From the NCBI RefSeq assembly GCF_014636865.1, contig NZ_BMER01000001.1, forward strand, positions 2,282,718 to 2,346,717: a stretch of DNA of 64,000 nt. Reading direction: 5' to 3'. The notes beneath the pieces are model-generated. The model saw nothing but the letters and a program-made list of their open reading frames with translations. It was not told the origin of the DNA and searched no databases. A program made the position numbers and the translations under genes. Shown here piece after piece: positions 1,361 to 10,869 of this stretch. Source of the DNA: Parapedobacter pyrenivorans (lineage in GTDB: Bacteria > Bacteroidota > Bacteroidia > Sphingobacteriales > Sphingobacteriaceae). Positions within the stretch are counted from its first letter, which is position 1. Every line of letters begins with the position of its first letter.

Positions 1361-2101
1361 ATCGACTTTATCACAATATATACGGTATTAGTTATTTTCT
1401 TGGCGACCTTGGTCCGGTCTATTTTCGGATTCGGTGAATCGCTTATCGCGGTACCACTGTTAGCGTTTTACCTGCCCATTGAAATTGCGGTGCCAGTTTC
1501 GGTGTTAGTATCCGTTGCGGTAGCAGGGGTTGTTGTTGCCCAAGATTGGCGAAAGATTCATTACAAGAGCGCTGGATGGTTGGTGCTTTTTTCCATGTTG
1601 GGTATACCAGTGGGACTTTGGTTGCTGACAAGTGTGGAAGAGCAATGGGTAAAAGCATTACTGGCAGTGGTCATCATCGGATTTTCACTTTACTCGCTAT
1701 TTGGACGGGGCATAACGCTCGAAACCGATACTAAATTTGGACTATTCCTTTGCGGGCTATTAGCAGGTGTGTTTGGCGGTGCGTACGGGCTTAATGGACC
1801 TCCTTTGGTTGTCTATGGTGCCATGCGGCGTTGGTCTGCACAGCATTTCAGAGCTACACTGCAAGGCTACTTTCTTCCGGCGAGTCTAATGGGCATGATT
1901 GGCTATTGGATAAACGGACTATGGGTGGCCGAGGTTACCTCGCTTTTCCTTTGGAGCCTACCGGCTGTCTTCTTGGCTACTTTTTTGGGGAGGGCGGTCA
2001 ACCGCCGAATGAACGGCACCTCTTTTTTTACCTACGTTTATATTGGCCTGATCGGTATTGGGGTATTGCTATTGATGGAGTCGCTCTTTGTCTTTCGCTA
2101 G
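1361..2101 (+). CDS. TSUP family (TauE/SafE) membrane permease
   Basis: Integral-membrane anion exporter family, often for sulfite or organosulfonates. The protein is almost entirely hydrophobic, with the family's FGFGESLIAVPLLA segment in the first repeat and GVFGGAYGLNGPPLVVYG in the second. The first conventional start is TTG at 1400, but that would cut through the first membrane helix. The in-frame codons upstream read IDFITIYTVLVIFLATLVRS and begin with ATC at 1361, six bases after an in-frame TAA region, with no ATG, GTG or TTG between. I therefore place the start at ATC 1361 (about 246 residues), tentatively. The gene converges on, and overlaps by 33 bases, a persulfide-dioxygenase/rhodanese gene, which suggests that a sulfur oxyanion is the substrate. 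Confidence 0.85.
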   Translation: MDFITIYTVLVIFLATLVRSIFGFGESLIAVPLLAFYLPIEIAVPVSVLVSVAVAGVVVAQDWRKIHYKSAGWLVLFSMLGIPVGLWLLTSVEEQWVKALLAVVIIGFSLYSLFGRGITLETDTKFGLFLCGLLAGVFGGAYGLNGPPLVVYGAMRRWSAQHFRATLQGYFLPASLMGMIGYWINGLWVAEVTSLFLWSLPAVFLATFLGRAVNRRMNGTSFFTYVYIGLIGIGVLLLMESLFVFR

Positions 2102-3559
2102 CCATGCATTCATGCCGCCCGAAAAATTGCTGATGTTTTCGAAACCGTGCTTTCTTAGTATGGAATAGGCAACAGCTGATCGAGCACCACTTTGGCAATG
2201 GACGATGATTTGCTTTTCCTTACTCACCTTGTTGAGGTTGGCTTCTAGCATTGGCAAGGGAATATTCTCCGCTCCTTGGATATGGCCTGCTTGATATTCG
2301 GCCTCGGTACGGACGTCAATGACTTGAACGTTGTTTTTGTTCTTCAGTGCCTTAAATGTGTGGAGATCGATAATATCCGGTCTTTCCAATGCTATGCCCA
2401 GACGCTCGATTTCAGATACGTAGCCATATATGTTGTCCATTCCGATACGCATGAGTTGGCGGGTGATCGCCTCAAGCCTTTCATCCTCCACCACCAAAAT
2501 AAGTTGCTGTTGGTAATCCAACAGTGATCCCACCCACGTAGCGAACGATTTACTTCCCTCGATGTGGACACTACCGGGGATGAATCCATTGGCCACTTCG
2601 TCCTTGTTACGGGTATCGACAACCTGTAGCCCGTTTTTCCAAGCCCTGAGAAATGCTTCGTCACTTAATTTCGGATAATTTGGAATTTCGATCAGTAGTG
2701 GGTGACGTGCCTTATTCAATTGTTTCATCACTGCAAAATACGTTGGCACGCTGGGTTGGCCATCAAGCACATAATCCACGAAGCCCCCTTCGTCGCCATG
2801 GTATTGAAATGCTTTGTTTAGTAACTTTTCCTGTTCCAATGTCGATTGCGGGATGTCGCTCAGCGACCTACCGCAGAAAGACCCTGCGCTATGCCCTGGC
2901 CAGATTTCCAACCCATCTGGCAATTCAGAAAAACGTTGGATTGACCGATATAGCTGTTTCGCACCCTCTTCGGCTGTGCCTATTTGTCCACTTGCCATTT
3001 CCAGAAGGTCGGGGCGGCCCACGTCGCCCACGAAAACAAAATCGCCTGTCAGGGCCTTTTGCGGTTTTTCGGATATCGCCGGATCGATCAGCAGGAAGGT
3101 GATGCTTTCGGGGGTATGCCCCGGTGTATGCATGACTTGCAGTAGCAGTTTACCCATGTCTATCCTATCGCCATCATTCAACGGAATATGGTCAAATTCG
3201 TACTGCCATTCCTTGCCGCCCGCTGCTGAAAGGAGCAATTCGGCGCCTGTTGCGGTTGCCAGTTCCTGAGATCCGCTCAGGAAATCCGCATGGATATGCG
3301 TTTCGGCGACGCGGGTAATCTGGAGGTTGTTCGATTCGGCGATTTTTAGGTAAGTGTCAATATCCCGCTTGGGGTCTATCACGATTGCCTCACGTGTTTT
3401 CAGACTGCCAATTACATAACTTGCCTGTGCAAGGCTTTCGTCAAATACCCGCTCAAAGAAGAGTGTTTGAGCAAAGGCGCCGTTTGTCTGCAGTAGGATT
3501 CCCAGCGATACCGCGAGCACTTGCAATTTGGTATGTTGATGTTTTTTTATTTTTTTCAT
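2069..3559 (-). CDS. Secreted MBL-fold (ETHE1-like) hydrolase with two rhodanese domains
   Basis: A 496-residue protein. Residues 1-30 form a Sec signal peptide (hydrophobic core, then GAFAQ). The metallo-beta-lactamase domain (about 32-250) carries H88-x-H90-x-D92 in a THIHADFLSG setting, H148 in HTPGHTPES, and D173/H223, the pattern of persulfide dioxygenases, which bind one iron and oxidise glutathione persulfide to sulfite. The first rhodanese domain (about 305-385) lacks the catalytic cysteine. The second (about 405-490) has C455 in CQSGARS and should be active in sulfur transfer. Known relatives fuse these domains in the cytoplasm; the predicted export here is notable. It faces a TSUP permease tail to tail, so oxidation and export of sulfur species may be linked (inference). 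Confidence 0.88.
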   Translation of the reverse strand: MKKIKKHQHTKLQVLAVSLGILLQTNGAFAQTLFFERVFDESLAQASYVIGSLKTREAIVIDPKRDIDTYLKIAESNNLQITRVAETHIHADFLSGSQELATATGAELLLSAAGGKEWQYEFDHIPLNDGDRIDMGKLLLQVMHTPGHTPESITFLLIDPAISEKPQKALTGDFVFVGDVGRPDLLEMASGQIGTAEEGAKQLYRSIQRFSELPDGLEIWPGHSAGSFCGRSLSDIPQSTLEQEKLLNKAFQYHGDEGGFVDYVLDGQPSVPTYFAVMKQLNKARHPLLIEIPNYPKLSDEAFLRAWKNGLQVVDTRNKDEVANGFIPGSVHIEGSKSFATWVGSLLDYQQQLILVVEDERLEAITRQLMRIGMDNIYGYVSEIERLGIALERPDIIDLHTFKALKNKNNVQVIDVRTEAEYQAGHIQGAENIPLPMLEANLNKVSKEKQIIVHCQSGARSAVAYSILRKHGFENISNFSGGMNAWLAKDKERLHQ

Positions 3560-4015: not shown

Positions 4016-6331
4016 ATGACAACCAAAGCTTTGCTGCAGGATATTTTGAAGAAGGCGTCGGTTACCCCATTGCTAGACGATGTGGTGGTACCGCTGTTTT
4101 TTAGATTAGGGAATGAGGTTGACCGCAGCGATCTGCGTAATTTGCTTCAACAGAAACCTTTCATCCGAATTTTTGACACGATAGACCAGCAATTGCGAGA
4201 ATTGGTAAAGTCGTTTTATCCCAAAAAAACATTGGTGGCGGACGAAATCGAGCGTTTGGTGAATGATCATCTAACGGGTATTCCCAAGCTGGAATACGGA
4301 GTCTGGGTATATTATCCGTGGAATGAAACATTGGTGCATATTCTGGATGAAGACGAATTTATAGCCATGCGCACCAACCGCAATCGTTACAAAATTACAG
4401 ATGATGAGCAGTTACTGTTGATGCAAAAGAAAGTGGGAGTTATTGGCCTGTCTGTAGGACAATCGGTGTCGCTCACGCTTTGTATGGAGCGCGGTTGCGG
4501 AGAATTGAGGATTGCGGATTTTGATGAGTTGGAAATCACCAACTTAAATAGGCTAAGGAGCGGCGTTCAAAATATGGGGTTGAAAAAAACCGTTATTGTT
4601 GCCCGAGAGATCGCTGAGATTGACCCGTTTTTGAAAGTGACCTGCTTCCATGAAGGCATAACAGCTGAAAACTTGGACAGCTTCTTGTTGCAGGGTGGTA
4701 AGCTCGATTTACTTATCGACGAATGTGATGGCGTGGATATTAAGATTAACTGTAGAATTGCGGCTAAGAAGCACGCTATTCCGGTACTTATGGAAGCCAG
4801 TGATAGAGGGACAGTTGATATAGAACGCTTTGATTTGGAACCAAATAGACCAATATTGCATGGGTTTGTGGAACATTTAGATGTTTCAAATTTTAAGAAT
4901 CTCAAAACCAATGAACAGAAACTTCCATATATACTTGCGTTTGCCGGTGTGGAAACTTTGTCAGTGAGAATGAAGGCATCGGCTATTGAAGTAGGGCAAA
5001 CGATATCTACTTGGCCGCAATTAGCCAGTGCCGTTACCATGGGGGGAGGAATTACAGCGGACGTATGTAGAAGGGTGCTATTAAACCAATTCTATCAATC
5101 AGGGAGGTATTTTATTGATTTAGAAGAATTGATTGGTGAGCCTAAGATGCAGACACCCGGCTTTGCATATACAAAGAAATCATTGACCAAGGATGAAATG
5201 ATTCGAATTGCTAACCTGGTGCCGAAGTTTGAGGAAAAAACAGCATATTCAATCAGTAAACAGACGCTTAAAGTGTTGGTTGAGGCAGCAATAGTTGCGC
5301 CTTCTCCAGGAAATAACCAACCATGGAAATGGTATTTTGATGGAGTAAGACTGTACCTATTTCACGATATCGAGCGTTCTGAATCGTTCGGGGATTTTGA
5401 GAACATGGCATCCTATATGACATTTGGGGCCGCAATGGAAAATCTAAGCCTGAAAGCGAGTGCTATAGGGGTGGGTGTGGCAGAAAAATTTTTCCCATTA
5501 CCGGATGTACCTCTTCTGATAGCTGTTATTTCATTTGTGCCTTCTCAACCAGTCGATAACAATCTGGCACCCTATATTCACACACGATGTACCAATAGAC
5601 ATCAAGGTAATGGACTGAAATTGGAGTTCAGAGATCTCGTTGAAATACAGCAATCGATAGAGCCAATTGAAGGAGCATCGCTTAGGTTTATCGATGATGC
5701 GGAAGGTTTACAGCAATTGGCAGAAATTGCTGGTAAATCTGAGAAATTGCGACTTTTTATACCGCAAGGCCATTACGAATTATTTGAGAAGGAGTTAAGA
5801 TGGACGACGGAGGAGACAGAAAAAACGAAAGATGGATTAGATGTGCGAACACTTGAGTTGAGTGCCAAAGATACAATAGGTTTTAGGGTGGCCAGAGATC
5901 CGGAAGCGATAAAGCTAGTTGCGGATTGGGGTTTAGGTAAGGCGCTGGAAAATATGACAGCAAACCTCATAAGAACCTCTTCATCGGTTGGACTTATCAC
6001 TATGCCGACCTTTGATGCAATCAATTGTCTCGAAGCAGGTAAGGCGCTAGAACGGATTTGGATGACTACGAGTAAAAATAATATTTCATTGCAGCCATTA
6101 CTAGCACCTATATTGCACTTTACAAGGCTAAGGTTTGGAAAGGGTAAAGATATGCCTACTAGCGTTCAGAATCAGTTTGCCCAACTAGATGATGAGTTTA
6201 ATTCAATATTTAGTATTAACTTAACAGAAGAAGTGCCTTTATTCTTCTTCAGACTGTTCAAAGGCGAGGATCCAACTGTGAATTCACTAAGGTTAAATTT
6301 GGAGGAAGTTTTTTTTCAGAGAGACAAATGA
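4016..6331 (+). CDS. Rv1355c-like ThiF (E1-like) and nitroreductase fusion protein
   Basis: A 771-residue cytoplasmic protein. Residues about 1-125 form a family-specific N-terminal region. Residues about 130-370 form a ThiF/E1-like adenylating Rossmann domain: GVIGLSVGQS at 141-150, the D168-x-D170 pair, and NLNR at 176-179, which bind and activate a carboxylate with ATP in this superfamily. Residues from about 415 on form a nitroreductase-like FMN domain, with PSPGNNQPWKW near its start. The same pairing of E1-like and flavin chemistry is known from azol(in)e-forming RiPP enzymes, but here both are in one chain. The stop overlaps the next start (ATGA), so it is translationally coupled to the GNAT-like gene. 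The reaction is not known. Assignment to the Rv1355c family is from recall of its architecture. Confidence 0.85.
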   Translation: MTTKALLQDILKKASVTPLLDDVVVPLFFRLGNEVDRSDLRNLLQQKPFIRIFDTIDQQLRELVKSFYPKKTLVADEIERLVNDHLTGIPKLEYGVWVYYPWNETLVHILDEDEFIAMRTNRNRYKITDDEQLLLMQKKVGVIGLSVGQSVSLTLCMERGCGELRIADFDELEITNLNRLRSGVQNMGLKKTVIVAREIAEIDPFLKVTCFHEGITAENLDSFLLQGGKLDLLIDECDGVDIKINCRIAAKKHAIPVLMEASDRGTVDIERFDLEPNRPILHGFVEHLDVSNFKNLKTNEQKLPYILAFAGVETLSVRMKASAIEVGQTISTWPQLASAVTMGGGITADVCRRVLLNQFYQSGRYFIDLEELIGEPKMQTPGFAYTKKSLTKDEMIRIANLVPKFEEKTAYSISKQTLKVLVEAAIVAPSPGNNQPWKWYFDGVRLYLFHDIERSESFGDFENMASYMTFGAAMENLSLKASAIGVGVAEKFFPLPDVPLLIAVISFVPSQPVDNNLAPYIHTRCTNRHQGNGLKLEFRDLVEIQQSIEPIEGASLRFIDDAEGLQQLAEIAGKSEKLRLFIPQGHYELFEKELRWTTEETEKTKDGLDVRTLELSAKDTIGFRVARDPEAIKLVADWGLGKALENMTANLIRTSSSVGLITMPTFDAINCLEAGKALERIWMTTSKNNISLQPLLAPILHFTRLRFGKGKDMPTSVQNQFAQLDDEFNSIFSINLTEEVPLFFFRLFKGEDPTVNSLRLNLEEVFFQRDK

Positions 6332-7035
6332 ATATGATTTCTGCTACATTCCGAGCTTTTCGTGCAGTAGATGAACCTAAGTCATGTGCAAGCTTTATAG
6401 AAGGACACCGGAAGGTGCTAGAAATTTATGGAATTACGATGATTACCTCTAATAAGCCATTGTGGACCAATCATAAAAACACCTATGTTGTATTGGTTGA
6501 ATCTAAAATTGATGGTCGGCTCTTTGGTGGAGCGCGACTCCAGATAGCTGATGAAGAGTTAATGTTGCCCATTGAAGAAGCGGTAGGCAAAGTTGATACT
6601 AAGATACATGATTTGGTCAAGCAGCATAGTGAAAAACATCTGACTGCGGAGCTATGTGGTTTATGGAACTCAAGGGAGGTTGCTGGATATGGGATAGGTA
6701 GCGCTCACTTAACTAAAGCAATTATCGTATTAGCAAGAAAACTGAATGTTAAAACATTGTTTGCACTTTGTGCCCCGGCGACGGTAAGAATGGGCGGGCG
6801 CGCTGGTTTTGTTATCGAACGCGCTTTAGGTAATGATGGTTTTTTTAATTATCCCAAACTGGATTTGGTTGCTACTGCGATGGTCATCAGGGATGTTAAT
6901 GAGCTATCACATGCTACAGAAGATAATCAATTGTTTGTAAAGGAATTTGACAAGAACCCTACCCAAGATAGAATAGAAAGAGGCCCGAAAGGCGAGATCA
7001 TGATAGCGTATGACCTGTCATTGGATAAAGTATAA
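6328..7035 (+). CDS. GNAT / autoinducer-synthase-like acyltransferase
   Basis: A 235-residue cytoplasmic protein. The central part (about 55-175) has the order of elements of the GNAT fold as used by N-acyl amino-acid synthases and LuxI-type enzymes: strand VVLVESKIDGRLFGGARLQ, a conserved acidic helix EEAVGK, strand ELCGLWNSREVAGYGIGSAHL, the acyl-CoA-binding-like turn and helix, and strand TLFALCAPATVRMGGRAGF. It overlaps the preceding gene by four bases, so the two products are probably made together and may act on the same substrate. LuxI/FeeM likeness is a pattern judgement, not a proven homology; plain GNAT acetyltransferase is the alternative. Confidence 0.65.
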   Translation: MNMISATFRAFRAVDEPKSCASFIEGHRKVLEIYGITMITSNKPLWTNHKNTYVVLVESKIDGRLFGGARLQIADEELMLPIEEAVGKVDTKIHDLVKQHSEKHLTAELCGLWNSREVAGYGIGSAHLTKAIIVLARKLNVKTLFALCAPATVRMGGRAGFVIERALGNDGFFNYPKLDLVATAMVIRDVNELSHATEDNQLFVKEFDKNPTQDRIERGPKGEIMIAYDLSLDKV

Positions 7036-7109
7036 AATAAAAAATTACTATTCTTGTAAGATAATTTTACTCTTGCGAAAATTATAAGAATATTTGAATA
7101 TAATATAAG

Positions 7110-9236
7110 ATGTTCTTCTCATATATCTTTTTTTTTGCTTTTGGCATTTTAACGGCTCAAATTGACTCTGCTTTAGCGGATGGGGACGACGTTTCCTTCA
7201 CAATAGGCGTTATTGAAGACCGGCATCGTCAATTTAAAATTGCAGACCTTATTCATAGAGATTTTGAAACTCTATCAAACCATTCTCCAAATTATGGATT
7301 AAGCGAATCCGTCTTTTGGTTTAAAGTGGAGGCCGTAAATCGCGGTAGGGACAGCGTTTTTTTGCTTAAAGTCCAAAATGCAAATATTAATAATTTGGTT
7401 TTCTACAGCATTACAAATGGCCAAATTGGCGTTCAAAAGTTGCCAAATACAACCCCCGTTTATCAGCGGGAGTTTAATACGCAATATCCTATTTTCAGAG
7501 TTAAGCTTCTTCCTGACTCTAGTACGGCGTTCTTCTTTCAAGCCTCTGGAGATGGTGTAATGGAAATTCCCATTACCATTGGTAAGAGTGCAACTATTTT
7601 GGAATGGGTAGCCAATGACCAGTTGTACTTTGGTATTTATTCAGGGATTATCGCGGTCATGTTCCTTTATAATTTTTTTCTTTATTTATCAACTAACGAT
7701 AGGCAATATCTATATTATGTTTTGTATATTTTAGTAGTTGGACTTACCCAAGCTTGCTTAAAGGGGTACGCTGCTAAATTTCTATGGCCTGATTCTACGT
7801 GGCTTATTGTTAAGGCTAACCATGTTATTACAGTTTTAGCCGGGGTTTTTTCAATTCTATTCACGTTTAATTTTTTACATGTCAAGCATTTTTTCAAGGC
7901 TGTCTATGCCGCTTTATGCGCCACAATTGCTATTTATGTTATATCTGCTGTTCTATACCTTTTTGGGCATTACATCATTGGTCAGCAAATATTACAGGTA
8001 AATACCGCCCTTAGCTCAGCTTTGGTTTTACTTAGCGGATTTTATATATTCTATAAAAAGAAGTATAAACCTGCATTATTTTTCTGCATAGCCTGGTCTT
8101 TTTTTCTAGGCGGAGTAATTATATATATAATGAAAGATGCGGGTGTCCTACCCTTTAATAGTTTTACCAATAATTCGATTTTAATAGGGTCGGCGCTGGA
8201 AGCTGCCCTGCTGTCATTTGCTTTGGCTGACAAAATAAATATTTACAAAAAGGAGAAGGAAGAATCCCAAGCTGAGGCTTTATTAATTTCCAAAGAAAAC
8301 GAAAAGCTAATTCGCGAGCAAAATATTATCCTTGAACAGCGAGTGGAGGAACGTACCCATGCATTGCAGGAATCGAATGAATCGCTGCAAAACACATTAA
8401 CCCATTTGAAGGAAACACAAGCACAACTGGTGGAAGCCGAAAAAATGGCTTCTCTCGGCCAATTGACGGCAGGTGTTGCGCATGAAATAAACAATCCGAT
8501 CAATTTTGTCACTTCCAACGTTGCGCCATTAAAACGAGATGTCGATATGGTTTGGAATGCCATGGATGAGATTGAAAATATTGCACTGTCAGATTTATCG
8601 TTGTCGGAAAAAAAACAGCGCATCAATGCCTATAAAGAAGAACTTGATCTTGAGTATCTTAAAGTAGAGGTAGATTTTCTGTTAAAGGGTATGCATGAAG
8701 GAGCATATCGGACTGCCGAAATCGTAAAAAGCCTCCGTATTTTCTCAAGGGTAGATGAGGACTCATTGAAATTCGCAGATATCAATGAAGGACTGGAGTC
8801 GACATTGGTAATTCTTAACAGCGTGGTGAAGGAGGGGGTAGCCGTAGACAAAAAATACGGTGAATTACCATTGGTAGAATGTTACCCGGGAAAGCTCAAT
8901 CAGGTGTTTTTGAATATCATTACCAACGCACTGTACGCAATTAACAAAAAATTCGATGGAAATTCCGGTGGAATACTTGAAATCAAGACGGAAGCTGACA
9001 CTGAAAATATCTATATTTCCATCAGGGACAATGGCATTGGTATGCCGACCGAAGTGAAGGAAAAAATATTTGAACCGTTCTTCACAACAAAGGAAGTGGG
9101 AGAGGGAACAGGGCTAGGGATGTCAATTGCTTACAATACGATAAAGAAGCACCAAGGGGAAATTAAGATCGAATCCTCGGTAGGCGAAGGCGTAAAGTTT
9201 TTGATAGTCCTGCCGCGCAAACAACAAACACAATAA
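7110..9236 (+). CDS. 7TMR-DISM sensor histidine kinase
   Basis: A 708-residue membrane receptor kinase. A signal peptide (about 1-24) precedes an extracellular 7TMR-DISMED2-like beta domain (about 30-165), seven membrane segments (about 172-375), and a coiled coil (about 378-445). The histidine phosphotransfer region has H458 in [10 protein letters not shown], and the ATPase domain has [19 protein letters not shown] with the G-box GEGTGLGMS. The extracellular domain of this family usually binds carbohydrates or small ligands. It follows the ThiF-nitroreductase and GNAT genes after 74 bases on the same strand, and is followed by a receiver-kinase; it is a good candidate for sensing the product of the enzymes upstream (inference). 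Confidence 0.92.
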
Positions 9237-9261
9237 GTGTTCTTTATTAAATCATTTATAT

Positions 9262-9269
9262 TAATTTTG
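9262..9269 (+). promoter_or_regulatory. -7 promoter box of the receiver-kinase gene
   Basis: Reads TAATTTTG (TAnnTTTG), about 37 bases before ATG 9307, in the 70-base gap after the 7TM kinase gene. It suggests that the receiver-kinase can also be transcribed on its own. Confidence 0.4.
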
Positions 9270-9306
9270 CTTTTTAGTCCATTGGCCCTATAAACTTTCC
9301 TTCACG

Positions 9307-10392
9307 ATGCTCCAGTATCCGGAAATACTTTACATTGATGACGAGGCCAACAACCTGGTCAGTTTTAAGGCTACGTTCAGGTATCGATATCCAATATATA
9401 CCGCAATCAGTACGGATGAAGCCCGTGATATACTGCGTTCAAATCCGAATATAAGGATTATCTTTTGTGACCAACGGATGCCTGGAGAAACCGGAATAGA
9501 TTTTTTGCACCATATAAAACTCGATTTTCCAAGACCTGTGCGGATTCTATTAACAGCCTATGCAGATATGGAAACGGTTGTAGATGCGGTAAATAAAGGG
9601 CATATTTTCAGGTTCGTACGTAAACCTTGGGTAGAAGAAGAGATTATCTCGTCGATCGAAGAGGCCAACAAGTTCTATATCACAAATTCCATGTTGGATA
9701 TTCGGAATGTCGAACTCCAAAAGGCATACGATGAACTGGACAAGTTTGCTTACAGCGTGAGCCATGACTTACGTGATCCGTTGACCGGGGTGCTATCTGC
9801 TATAAAACTGGGGCTGGAGTTTGATTCCGTTGAGCGAATTCACGAGATTCTGGCATTGATGGAGAGTTCGGTATTAAGGCTGAACGCTTATATCAACAGC
9901 CTACACGACTATTACTTGTTAAAGCGGGGTGAGCTTACGATTTCTGAAATTGATTTTCAGTCGTTATTTGAGTATTTGAGGAGTTTTTACAGTGTCTATA
10001 CGCAAAGTAATAACGTTGAATTTACGATCGATAGTAGTCAAAAGGAAGAATTCAAAAGTGACGAAACGACCTTAAAGCTTATCTTGCACAATCTGCTATC
10101 AAATGCTTTCAAGTATCAAAAAAAGGATGGCGACGGTAAAATCGTGAAACTATCGGTAGTTGTAGACAACGGCAAAGCAACCATACAGGTGAGCGATACG
10201 GGAATCGGTATTGCTGAGCAGGATATTGGAGAGATTTTTAAGCTCTTTTTTAGGGGAAGTGATCAAGCGGAAGGTACGGGTTTCGGGTTGTATAATGTAA
10301 AAAGCGCGTTGGCTAAATTACGAGGTGAAATTGAAGTCAGCTCAACAGAAGGAGAAGGGACTACGTTTGCTGTAACAATACCGGGTAAATAG
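9307..10392 (+). CDS. Receiver domain fused to histidine kinase
   Basis: A 361-residue soluble protein with an N-terminal receiver domain (D11/D12, phospho-acceptor D55 in CDQRMP, K106 in RKPW) followed by a HisKA helix pair with H153 in SVSHDLRDPL and an ATPase domain with DTGIGIAEQDIGEIF and GTGFGLYN. This order (receiver first, kinase second) fits a relay protein that takes phosphate from the upstream 7TM kinase and passes a signal on. No DNA-binding domain is present. The receiver is closely similar to the one in the convergent gene at 10408-10869. Confidence 0.92.
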   Translation: MLQYPEILYIDDEANNLVSFKATFRYRYPIYTAISTDEARDILRSNPNIRIIFCDQRMPGETGIDFLHHIKLDFPRPVRILLTAYADMETVVDAVNKGHIFRFVRKPWVEEEIISSIEEANKFYITNSMLDIRNVELQKAYDELDKFAYSVSHDLRDPLTGVLSAIKLGLEFDSVERIHEILALMESSVLRLNAYINSLHDYYLLKRGELTISEIDFQSLFEYLRSFYSVYTQSNNVEFTIDSSQKEEFKSDETTLKLILHNLLSNAFKYQKKDGDGKIVKLSVVVDNGKATIQVSDTGIGIAEQDIGEIFKLFFRGSDQAEGTGFGLYNVKSALAKLRGEIEVSSTEGEGTTFAVTIPGK

Positions 10393-10407
10393 CAAAGTTT
10401 GGTATGG

Positions 10408-10869
10408 TTAGGAAAGTAGTTTTTGCCTGAGGAGAAACTCAAGTTGCTCATTAGTTACTTCAAGTTGCGAAAATGATTCCTTTATTTTTTTTCTTTCGGA
10501 ATAAATATCATAAGCTCGTTGAATGGTCTCGTCTAACTCTTCCTCGCTCCATGGCTTGCTCAAATAATGGAAAATCTTGCCTTTATTTACGGCATCGACT
10601 ACAGCACCCATATCTGCGTAACCGGTGAGTAGAATACGTACAGGATCCGGATCCACCTTAATGATTTCTTCGAGAAATTCAACTCCGGTCATTTGCGGCA
10701 TCCGTTGATCGGTGATGATGATGTCAATGGGATTATTCTTGACAGTTTGAATAGCATCGGTGCCATTCAGCGCTGTATAAATTTTATATTTTAGGCGAAA
10801 GGTAGCTCTGAAAGAGATTAAATTATTCTCTTCATCATCCACATACAAAACTGAAATTTTCGTCTCCAT
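10408..10869 (-). CDS. Single-domain response regulator with C-terminal coiled coil
   Basis: A 153-residue CheY-like receiver: acidic D11/D12, phospho-acceptor D54 in TDQRMP, K105 in SKPW, then a helical tail (about 125-153) that may form a short coiled coil. No output domain follows. It converges on the receiver-kinase gene 16 bases away and shares with it YVDDE/YIDDE, DQRMP, VRILLT-YADM and VVDAVNKG, so the two receivers probably arose by duplication. Likely a phosphate sink or adaptor in the same pathway. Confidence 0.9.
   Translation of the reverse strand: METKISVLYVDDEENNLISFRATFRLKYKIYTALNGTDAIQTVKNNPIDIIITDQRMPQMTGVEFLEEIIKVDPDPVRILLTGYADMGAVVDAVNKGKIFHYLSKPWSEEELDETIQRAYDIYSERKKIKESFSQLEVTNEQLEFLLRQKLLS

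Follow-up and report, generated by a model that had tools for sequence, protein, structure and literature searches.

A FeeM-like synthase linked to a 7TM-DISM histidine kinase across Bacteroidota: a candidate make-and-sense module in Parapedobacter pyrenivorans

Acyltransferases of the FeeM/N-acylhomoserine lactone (AHL) synthase fold stand beside a ThiF cyclase and a flavin oxidase in the oxazolone gene sets OxzAB (Pseudoalteromonas rubra), TyzACB, and TrzAS (Mycobacterium, Rhodococcus), and the cyclase and the oxidase are fused in OxzB and TrzS, as described in two reports (PMC12856293, PMC10404671). We found a similar arrangement, with the same fusion, in a stretch of 64,000 nucleotides (here called the window) from the 5.9-Mb genome of Parapedobacter pyrenivorans (contig NZ_BMER01000001.1, positions 2,282,718 to 2,346,717). 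Unlike the oxazolone pathways, this module combines the enzymes with a constant 7TM-DISM histidine kinase and receivers, and its tailoring enzyme is exchangeable. From the sequences and predicted structures, we consider it probable, at roughly 0.68, that the module is a self-contained system for making and sensing an N-acyl amino-acid derivative, with exchangeable signal types.

According to PMC12856293, TrzS and the N-acyltransferase TrzA make N-acyl tryptazolone, and the conversion of N-acyl-tryptophan to N-acyl oxazolone by TrzS was shown in 2025. Tyrazolones and tryptazolones are destroyed by acid and by methanol, as stated in that paper. In the same paper, the acyl-tryptophan intermediates are described as mostly extracellular, oxazolones are called similar to cell-cell signals, and the Discussion names the role of oxazolones as a major unresolved question. 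In the passages considered, cyclic di-GMP genes, and no kinase, are named beside trzAS, and a search of the paper for the terms "histidine kinase" and "two-component" returned none.

Acyl-signal synthases beside membrane kinases, as well as the exchange of signal and sensor in peptide systems, are already known kinds. LuxM/LuxN-type systems pair an acyl-signal synthase with a membrane hybrid kinase, and the module resembles them in architecture, its synthase of an acyl signal adjoining a histidine kinase with several helices; their synthase and sensor belong to other families than those of the window. In agr and comQXPA, the signal genes and the sensor half of the kinase vary as a block, and the signals are peptides. 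The module shares with them a variable signal/sensor block, a conserved kinase half, and a single chromosomal site, whereas its signal would be a modified N-acyl amino acid. What is new is the combination, namely, a pathway of the oxazolone type accompanied by a constant kinase, alongside which small-molecule tailoring genes change. In Bacteroidota, N-acyl-cyclolysines (ACLs) are said to be made from lysine and sensed by a transcription factor, AclR, in work attributed to Linares-Otoya et al. (Nature 2025); in contrast to AclR, the presumed sensor of the window is a membrane kinase. ACLs are acylated and cyclized amino acids (PMC13419125), like the product predicted here. Among the literature matches listed, no paper described these genes as a set in Bacteroidota, which, with several listings capped and subscription papers mostly uncovered, is weak evidence of absence.

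Enzymes of the module and their predicted product

Four genes run on the plus strand and encode, in order, the ThiF-oxidase fusion, the synthase, the 7TM kinase, and a receiver-kinase; a stand-alone receiver follows on the minus strand. The first gene (positions 4016 to 6331) encodes a TrzS/OxzB-like protein of 771 amino acids, in which a ThiF-type ATP-dependent cyclase domain (approximately residues 1 to 400; Pfam ThiF) is fused to an Acg-type flavin-dependent oxidase domain (approximately residues 401 to 771; Pfam Nitroreductase). It matched the NCBIfam model NF005901, "Rv1355c family protein," with 770.6 bits against a cutoff of 476, residues 25 to 766 aligning with positions 12 to 718 of 722 in the model, and its PDB matches included the nitroreductase Acg (2ymv) and TcdA (4d7a). 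An earlier note on this DNA had described the protein as an E1-like adenylating domain fused to a flavin mononucleotide nitroreductase, and the Pfam and NF005901 matches bear this out. Residues D168, D170, N176, N178, R179, K191, and D238 were kept in 95% or more of the 89 relatives aligned, and we presume ATP-site roles for these motif residues by analogy with MoeB and ThiF. The catalytic residues of TrzS are D217, R540, and Q651, and D238, an Asp of the ThiF ATP motif, may be equivalent to the Asp there.

The second gene (6328 to 7035, plus strand), a near-constant member of the module, shares a 4-base overlap (6328 to 6331) with the fusion, which the earlier note had read as translational coupling. 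Its product of 235 amino acids had no Pfam match above the cutoff (the best was Acetyltransf_1, with 17.1 bits against 20.7), and its assignment to the GNAT fold rests on a predicted model. When this model was compared with the PDB, FeeM came first and the AHL synthases LasI, BjaI, TofI, and RpaI were among the top rows; thus, the protein models as a FeeM-like N-acyl-amino-acid synthase. This accords with the resemblance to autoinducer or N-acyl-amino-acid synthases that had been noted earlier, and the fold check against LuxI and FeeM proposed at that time gave a fit not limited to ordinary acetyltransferases. FeeM and BjaI were also reported as the closest structures for TyzA (PMC10404671). 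The likeness of the window synthase to TrzA, TyzA, and OxzA lies in predicted fold and adjacency; identity to FeeM was 14% over aligned residues, and only 1 of 40 synthase relatives matched the FeeM Pfam model. No NCBIfam family was found for the synthase, with stray single matches across the 40 members, and a profile search against PDB sequences returned only CLP1 at a meaningless E value of 0.9. We rejected a strict LuxI reading, there being no AHL-synthase model listed for the window protein or the 40 relatives.

In the pathway that we propose, the GNAT enzyme would acylate an amino acid at its amino group, with acyl-coenzyme A or acyl-acyl carrier protein as the donor. The ThiF domain would activate the carboxyl group with ATP and close the oxazolone ring, and the flavin oxidase would then desaturate the oxazolone. 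The fusion-synthase pair thus probably makes an N-acyl amino-acid oxazolone, and we regard such a product as likelier than a cell-to-cell role for it. The lipophilic product would leave the cell or remain in the envelope. The 7TM-DISM kinase would detect it through its periplasmic part, its membrane part, or both and would in turn phosphorylate the paired receivers, i.e., the receiver-kinase and the stand-alone receiver. Each lineage would possess a product variant and, attached to a common kinase, a sensor half of its own, resembling the pherotypes of agr and comQXPA.

The tailoring enzymes were compared among 102 loci with distinct synthases, taken from 40 loci chosen for carrying a synthase or a strong ThiF match (G loci) and from 80 loci on named contigs; the latter are the best 80 of 563 and therefore lean towards close relatives. 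The tailoring gene encodes ThiF alone in 45 loci, ThiF plus oxidase in 44, an S-adenosylmethionine (SAM) methyltransferase in 7, and a FAD_binding_4 oxidase in 5, and 1 locus has none; ThiF and oxidase are two open reading frames in L079. Besides, an ICMT-family carboxyl methyltransferase lies between synthase and kinase in L197 (8203 to 8844; genome G126), which, like L198, is outside the locus counts. Several of these tailoring enzymes could mask the carboxyl group. Since the tailoring enzyme is swapped among relatives, the lineages should make different variants of the product.

Linkage, exchange, and covariation of synthase and sensor

The kinase, which we presume to be the receptor, is encoded at 7110 to 9236 on the plus strand and has the 7TMR-DISM architecture of DISMED domain, seven helices, and kinase according to both Pfam (7TMR-DISMED2, 7TMR-DISM_7TM, and HATPase_c) and the predicted model. 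It comprises a sensor half (residues 1 to 395, comprising the periplasmic domain and the seven helices; 7110 to 8294), exchanged together with the synthase according to domain identities and partial Mantel tests, and a catalytic half conserved within the genus (residues 451 to 708; 8460 to 9236). The sensor half was modeled with a predicted local distance difference test score of 91.8, and its best PDB match was the periplasmic domain of RetS, with carbohydrate-binding modules lower in the match list of the periplasmic part. A Foldseek search with the sensor also gave human Wntless (E value, 1.4e-4; root-mean-square deviation, >15), a lead only.

The neighborhood of synthase and kinase exceeds chance. 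In the whole genome, the single 7TMR-DISM_7TM match above the cutoff adjoins the sole clear synthase relative (the other match had an E value of 0.39); with one of each present and the two adjoining, a chance neighborhood is unlikely. Among 60 relatives, the synthase search gave matches in 34, and the kinase was matched over its full length, with 487 bits or more, in the same 34; the highest score among the remaining 26 was 291 bits, from a match confined to the kinase half. Likewise, 12 of 296 genomes of the phylum have the synthase, and the same 12 have an adjoining kinase of at least 459 bits, against a best of 270 bits in the other 284. In the 102 loci, the kinase lies behind the synthase on the same strand in 98, and the four without a downstream kinase (L089, L123, L126, and L177) are cut off by the end of the contig, in two cases within the kinase gene. 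Nearby, 93/102 loci have a receiver-kinase and 82/102 a stand-alone receiver. The named hosts belong to four NCBI classes (Sphingobacteriia, Chitinophagia, Cytophagia, and Flavobacteriia), and the flanking genes vary outside the genus. Thus, the same gene order, which the earlier note had advised seeking in other Bacteroidota, holds for synthase and kinase across genomes of the phylum, and its idea that the genes make, sense, and respond to a small molecule is supported by this linkage, by the fold of the synthase, and by the covariation described below. One contig, L130, is labeled Azovibrio restrictus, a betaproteobacterium, and equals L131 ("uncultured Bacteroides") in gene order and match score; it is probably misplaced.

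At one chromosomal site in Parapedobacter, the synthase genes and the sensor half of the kinase have been exchanged. The window and six Parapedobacter relatives have elongation factor Ts as the right flank (88 to 92% identical), and five of the six also have a START protein as the left flank (88 to 94%). Between the window and these six, identity is high for the stand-alone receivers (82 to 88%), the receiver-kinases (78 to 88%), and the kinase catalytic halves (72 to 82%), and it is low for the synthases (44 to 69%), the 7TM parts (38 to 62%), and the periplasmic parts (19 to 36%). Along the kinase, identity rises between approximately residues 350 and 400. A seventh relative, P. tibetensis, is close to the window throughout (periplasmic part, 64%; synthase, 86%), and the eighth, P. 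lycopersici, carries the module at another site; the catalytic half is 72 to 82% identical in the seven relatives with the site and 56% in the eighth. Three cassette types occupy the site, namely, fusion-synthase, synthase-ThiF, and synthase-methyltransferase; P. luteus has the synthase with ThiF, and P. indicus has it with the methyltransferase. Synthase and sensor half are thus polymorphic together while the kinase half and the flanks are conserved at one site, which is the pattern of a pherotype locus.

Synthase and sensor covary. This was measured by partial Mantel tests (499 permutations) in the 93 of 102 loci having both kinase and receiver-kinase, i.e., excluding L068, L074, L089, L094, L123, L126, L177, L179, and L182; L095, among the 93, has no tailoring label. 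With kinase half and receiver-kinase partialled out, GNAT distance correlated with periplasmic distance (r = 0.52; 0/499) and with 7TM distance (r = 0.64; 0/499), whereas with the sensor partialled out, no correlation was left between GNAT and the kinase half (r = -0.03; 361/499). The distances of kinase half and receiver-kinase correlate with each other (r = 0.89). When the loci were divided by gene order, the sign was the same in both subsets, and 67 loci gave strong correlations (periplasmic, r = 0.58; 7TM, r = 0.77). Furthermore, the count of changes in tailoring class was 8 for the sensor tree, 16 for the GNAT tree, 20 for the kinase-half tree, and 18 for the receiver-kinase tree. In 60 bootstraps of 150 columns, the mean changes were 9.4, 16.6, 18.9, and 19.3, respectively, and a tree of just the 7TM part gave 8.7, against an average of 37 for shuffled labels. 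We claim the covariation of synthase and sensor and take a match between sensor and tailoring chemistry as no more than possible.

Weighing of the proposed role

Several observations weigh against the make-and-sense reading. A small residual partial correlation was found between GNAT and receiver-kinase (r = 0.19; 0/499), and the correlations were weak (periplasmic, r = 0.27; 7TM, r = 0.20) where the tailoring gene separates GNAT from the kinase (26 loci). In 66 loci of constant gene order, the mean number of tailoring changes was smallest for GNAT (3.7), followed by the 7TM part (5.2), the kinase half (5.8), and both the periplasmic part and the receiver-kinase (6.3). Synthase and sensor half are physical neighbors, so that joint recombination would also yield covariation. 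The synthases of P. indicus and P. lycopersici are 74% identical and their periplasmic sensor parts only 24%, a mismatch that can be reconciled with the reading only on the assumption that the tailored product is what the sensor detects. A DNA-binding output was not found as a fixed part of the module, and in the characterized relatives of the enzymes a signaling role is unproven. We therefore do not claim in general that tailoring chemistry is followed more closely by the sensor than by the synthase, as this holds over the 93 loci and fails in the 66 of constant order.

It is conceivable, if unlikely, that the product serves as a lipid of the membrane, of stress, or of antibiosis and that the kinase monitors the envelope or the cell's own product to set its level, giving feedback and not communication between cells. 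Oxazolones of Mycobacterium and Proteobacteria without a known signal role would fit this, as would the unconserved flanks, which offer no regulated target indicating group behavior. However, an envelope-stress monitor need not swap its sensor half with each change of synthase, and the likeness of oxazolones to cell-cell signals, together with the mostly extracellular acyl-tryptophan intermediates described in PMC12856293, speaks against such lipid feedback. We think it improbable that a ligand from outside, for example a sugar, is sensed via DISMED2 and that the kinase merely switches on the synthase operon. The RetS match and the lower-ranking carbohydrate-binding modules are in line with this possibility, but it leaves the codivergence of sensor and synthase unexplained, as well as the covariation of the 7TM part, which is stronger than that of the periplasmic part (r = 0.64 versus 0.52).

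More improbable still is hitchhiking, in which genes of separate functions recombine as one block between a conserved flanking gene and the kinase half. Adjacency alone predicts covariation, and the tailoring class follows GNAT best in the constant-order subset; however, the association persists over four NCBI classes and differing flanks, and presence is shared in 34/34 and 12/12 genomes, with neither gene alone in the 26 and 284 others. Unrelated neighbors would separate somewhere in such a sample, which disfavors hitchhiking. That the ThiF protein is the E1 of a ubiquitin-like conjugation or defense system is hardly credible and was dropped, because, although its ThiF-fold matches also include UBA5, ThiF, and MoeB, its best family is the Rv1355c cyclase-oxidase with a characterized member in TrzS, and the locus maps, whose flanks were not scanned with defense models, hold no constant E2- or ubiquitin-like partner.

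Returning to the make-and-sense reading, we give somewhat better than even odds to its widest form, a phylum-wide family of Bacteroidota cell-to-cell signaling systems composed of a FeeM-like synthase, an exchangeable tailoring enzyme, and a coinherited 7TM-DISM kinase with a matching sensor. If true, no dedicated receptor for oxazolone lipids would have been proposed before this one, and the family would be a chemical pherotype system of small molecules instead of peptides and a second chemical language of Bacteroidota beside ACLs; it would also supply a ligand class for 7TM-DISM kinases; tailoring genes beside such kinases would then be a route to new signal molecules. Because the kinase is constantly paired with the synthase, the question of the oxazolone role becomes directly testable through the response of the kinase to the product. 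Besides, synthase and sensor have been swapped naturally among the Parapedobacter species while the kinase half is shared, so that specificity could be read with chimeras.

Phosphorelay and neighboring genes

The receiver-kinase (9307 to 10392, plus strand; Pfam Response_reg, HisKA, and HATPase_c) would be the second element of the relay, and the stand-alone receiver (Pfam Response_reg) lies at 10408 to 10869 on the minus strand. The earlier note had placed kinase, receiver-kinase, and receiver in one row; the domains and their order stood, but the last receiver is convergent with the others and therefore not the next gene of the operon. In the kinase, H458 is kept by 97% or more of 93 relatives; the receiver-kinase has the conserved residues D55 and H153, and the receiver has D54, with roles assigned from motifs. 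Within the genome, the stand-alone receiver is most closely related to the receiver domain found in the neighboring receiver-kinase (53% identity, 130.7 bits; the next, 52.6 bits), as expected if one kinase serves both. The tail pattern LLRQxLLS ends 72 of the 82 stand-alone receivers, including that of the window. A further single receiver of 131 to 147 amino acids lies behind the receiver-kinase in many loci outside Parapedobacter (e.g., L111 and L159).

Between the START gene and the module, the window contains a TauE/SafE-type exporter gene (1400 to 2101, plus strand; Pfam, 107.9 bits) and a gene for a metallo-beta-lactamase/rhodanese protein (2069 to 3559, minus strand), both absent in the Parapedobacter relatives with START beside the module.

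Eight kinase-like DISM proteins without a synthase were also examined, and none gave a synthase match. In genome G323, a second, more distant kinase of this type (L199, 9514 to 13164), without a synthase, follows a 517-amino-acid flavin adenine dinucleotide-linked oxidase on the same strand. In L200 (6983 to 11240; genome G133), the kinase stands directly behind a carotenoid oxygenase (RPE65 family, 104.7 bits), and perhaps this kinase has another lipophilic ligand made next door.

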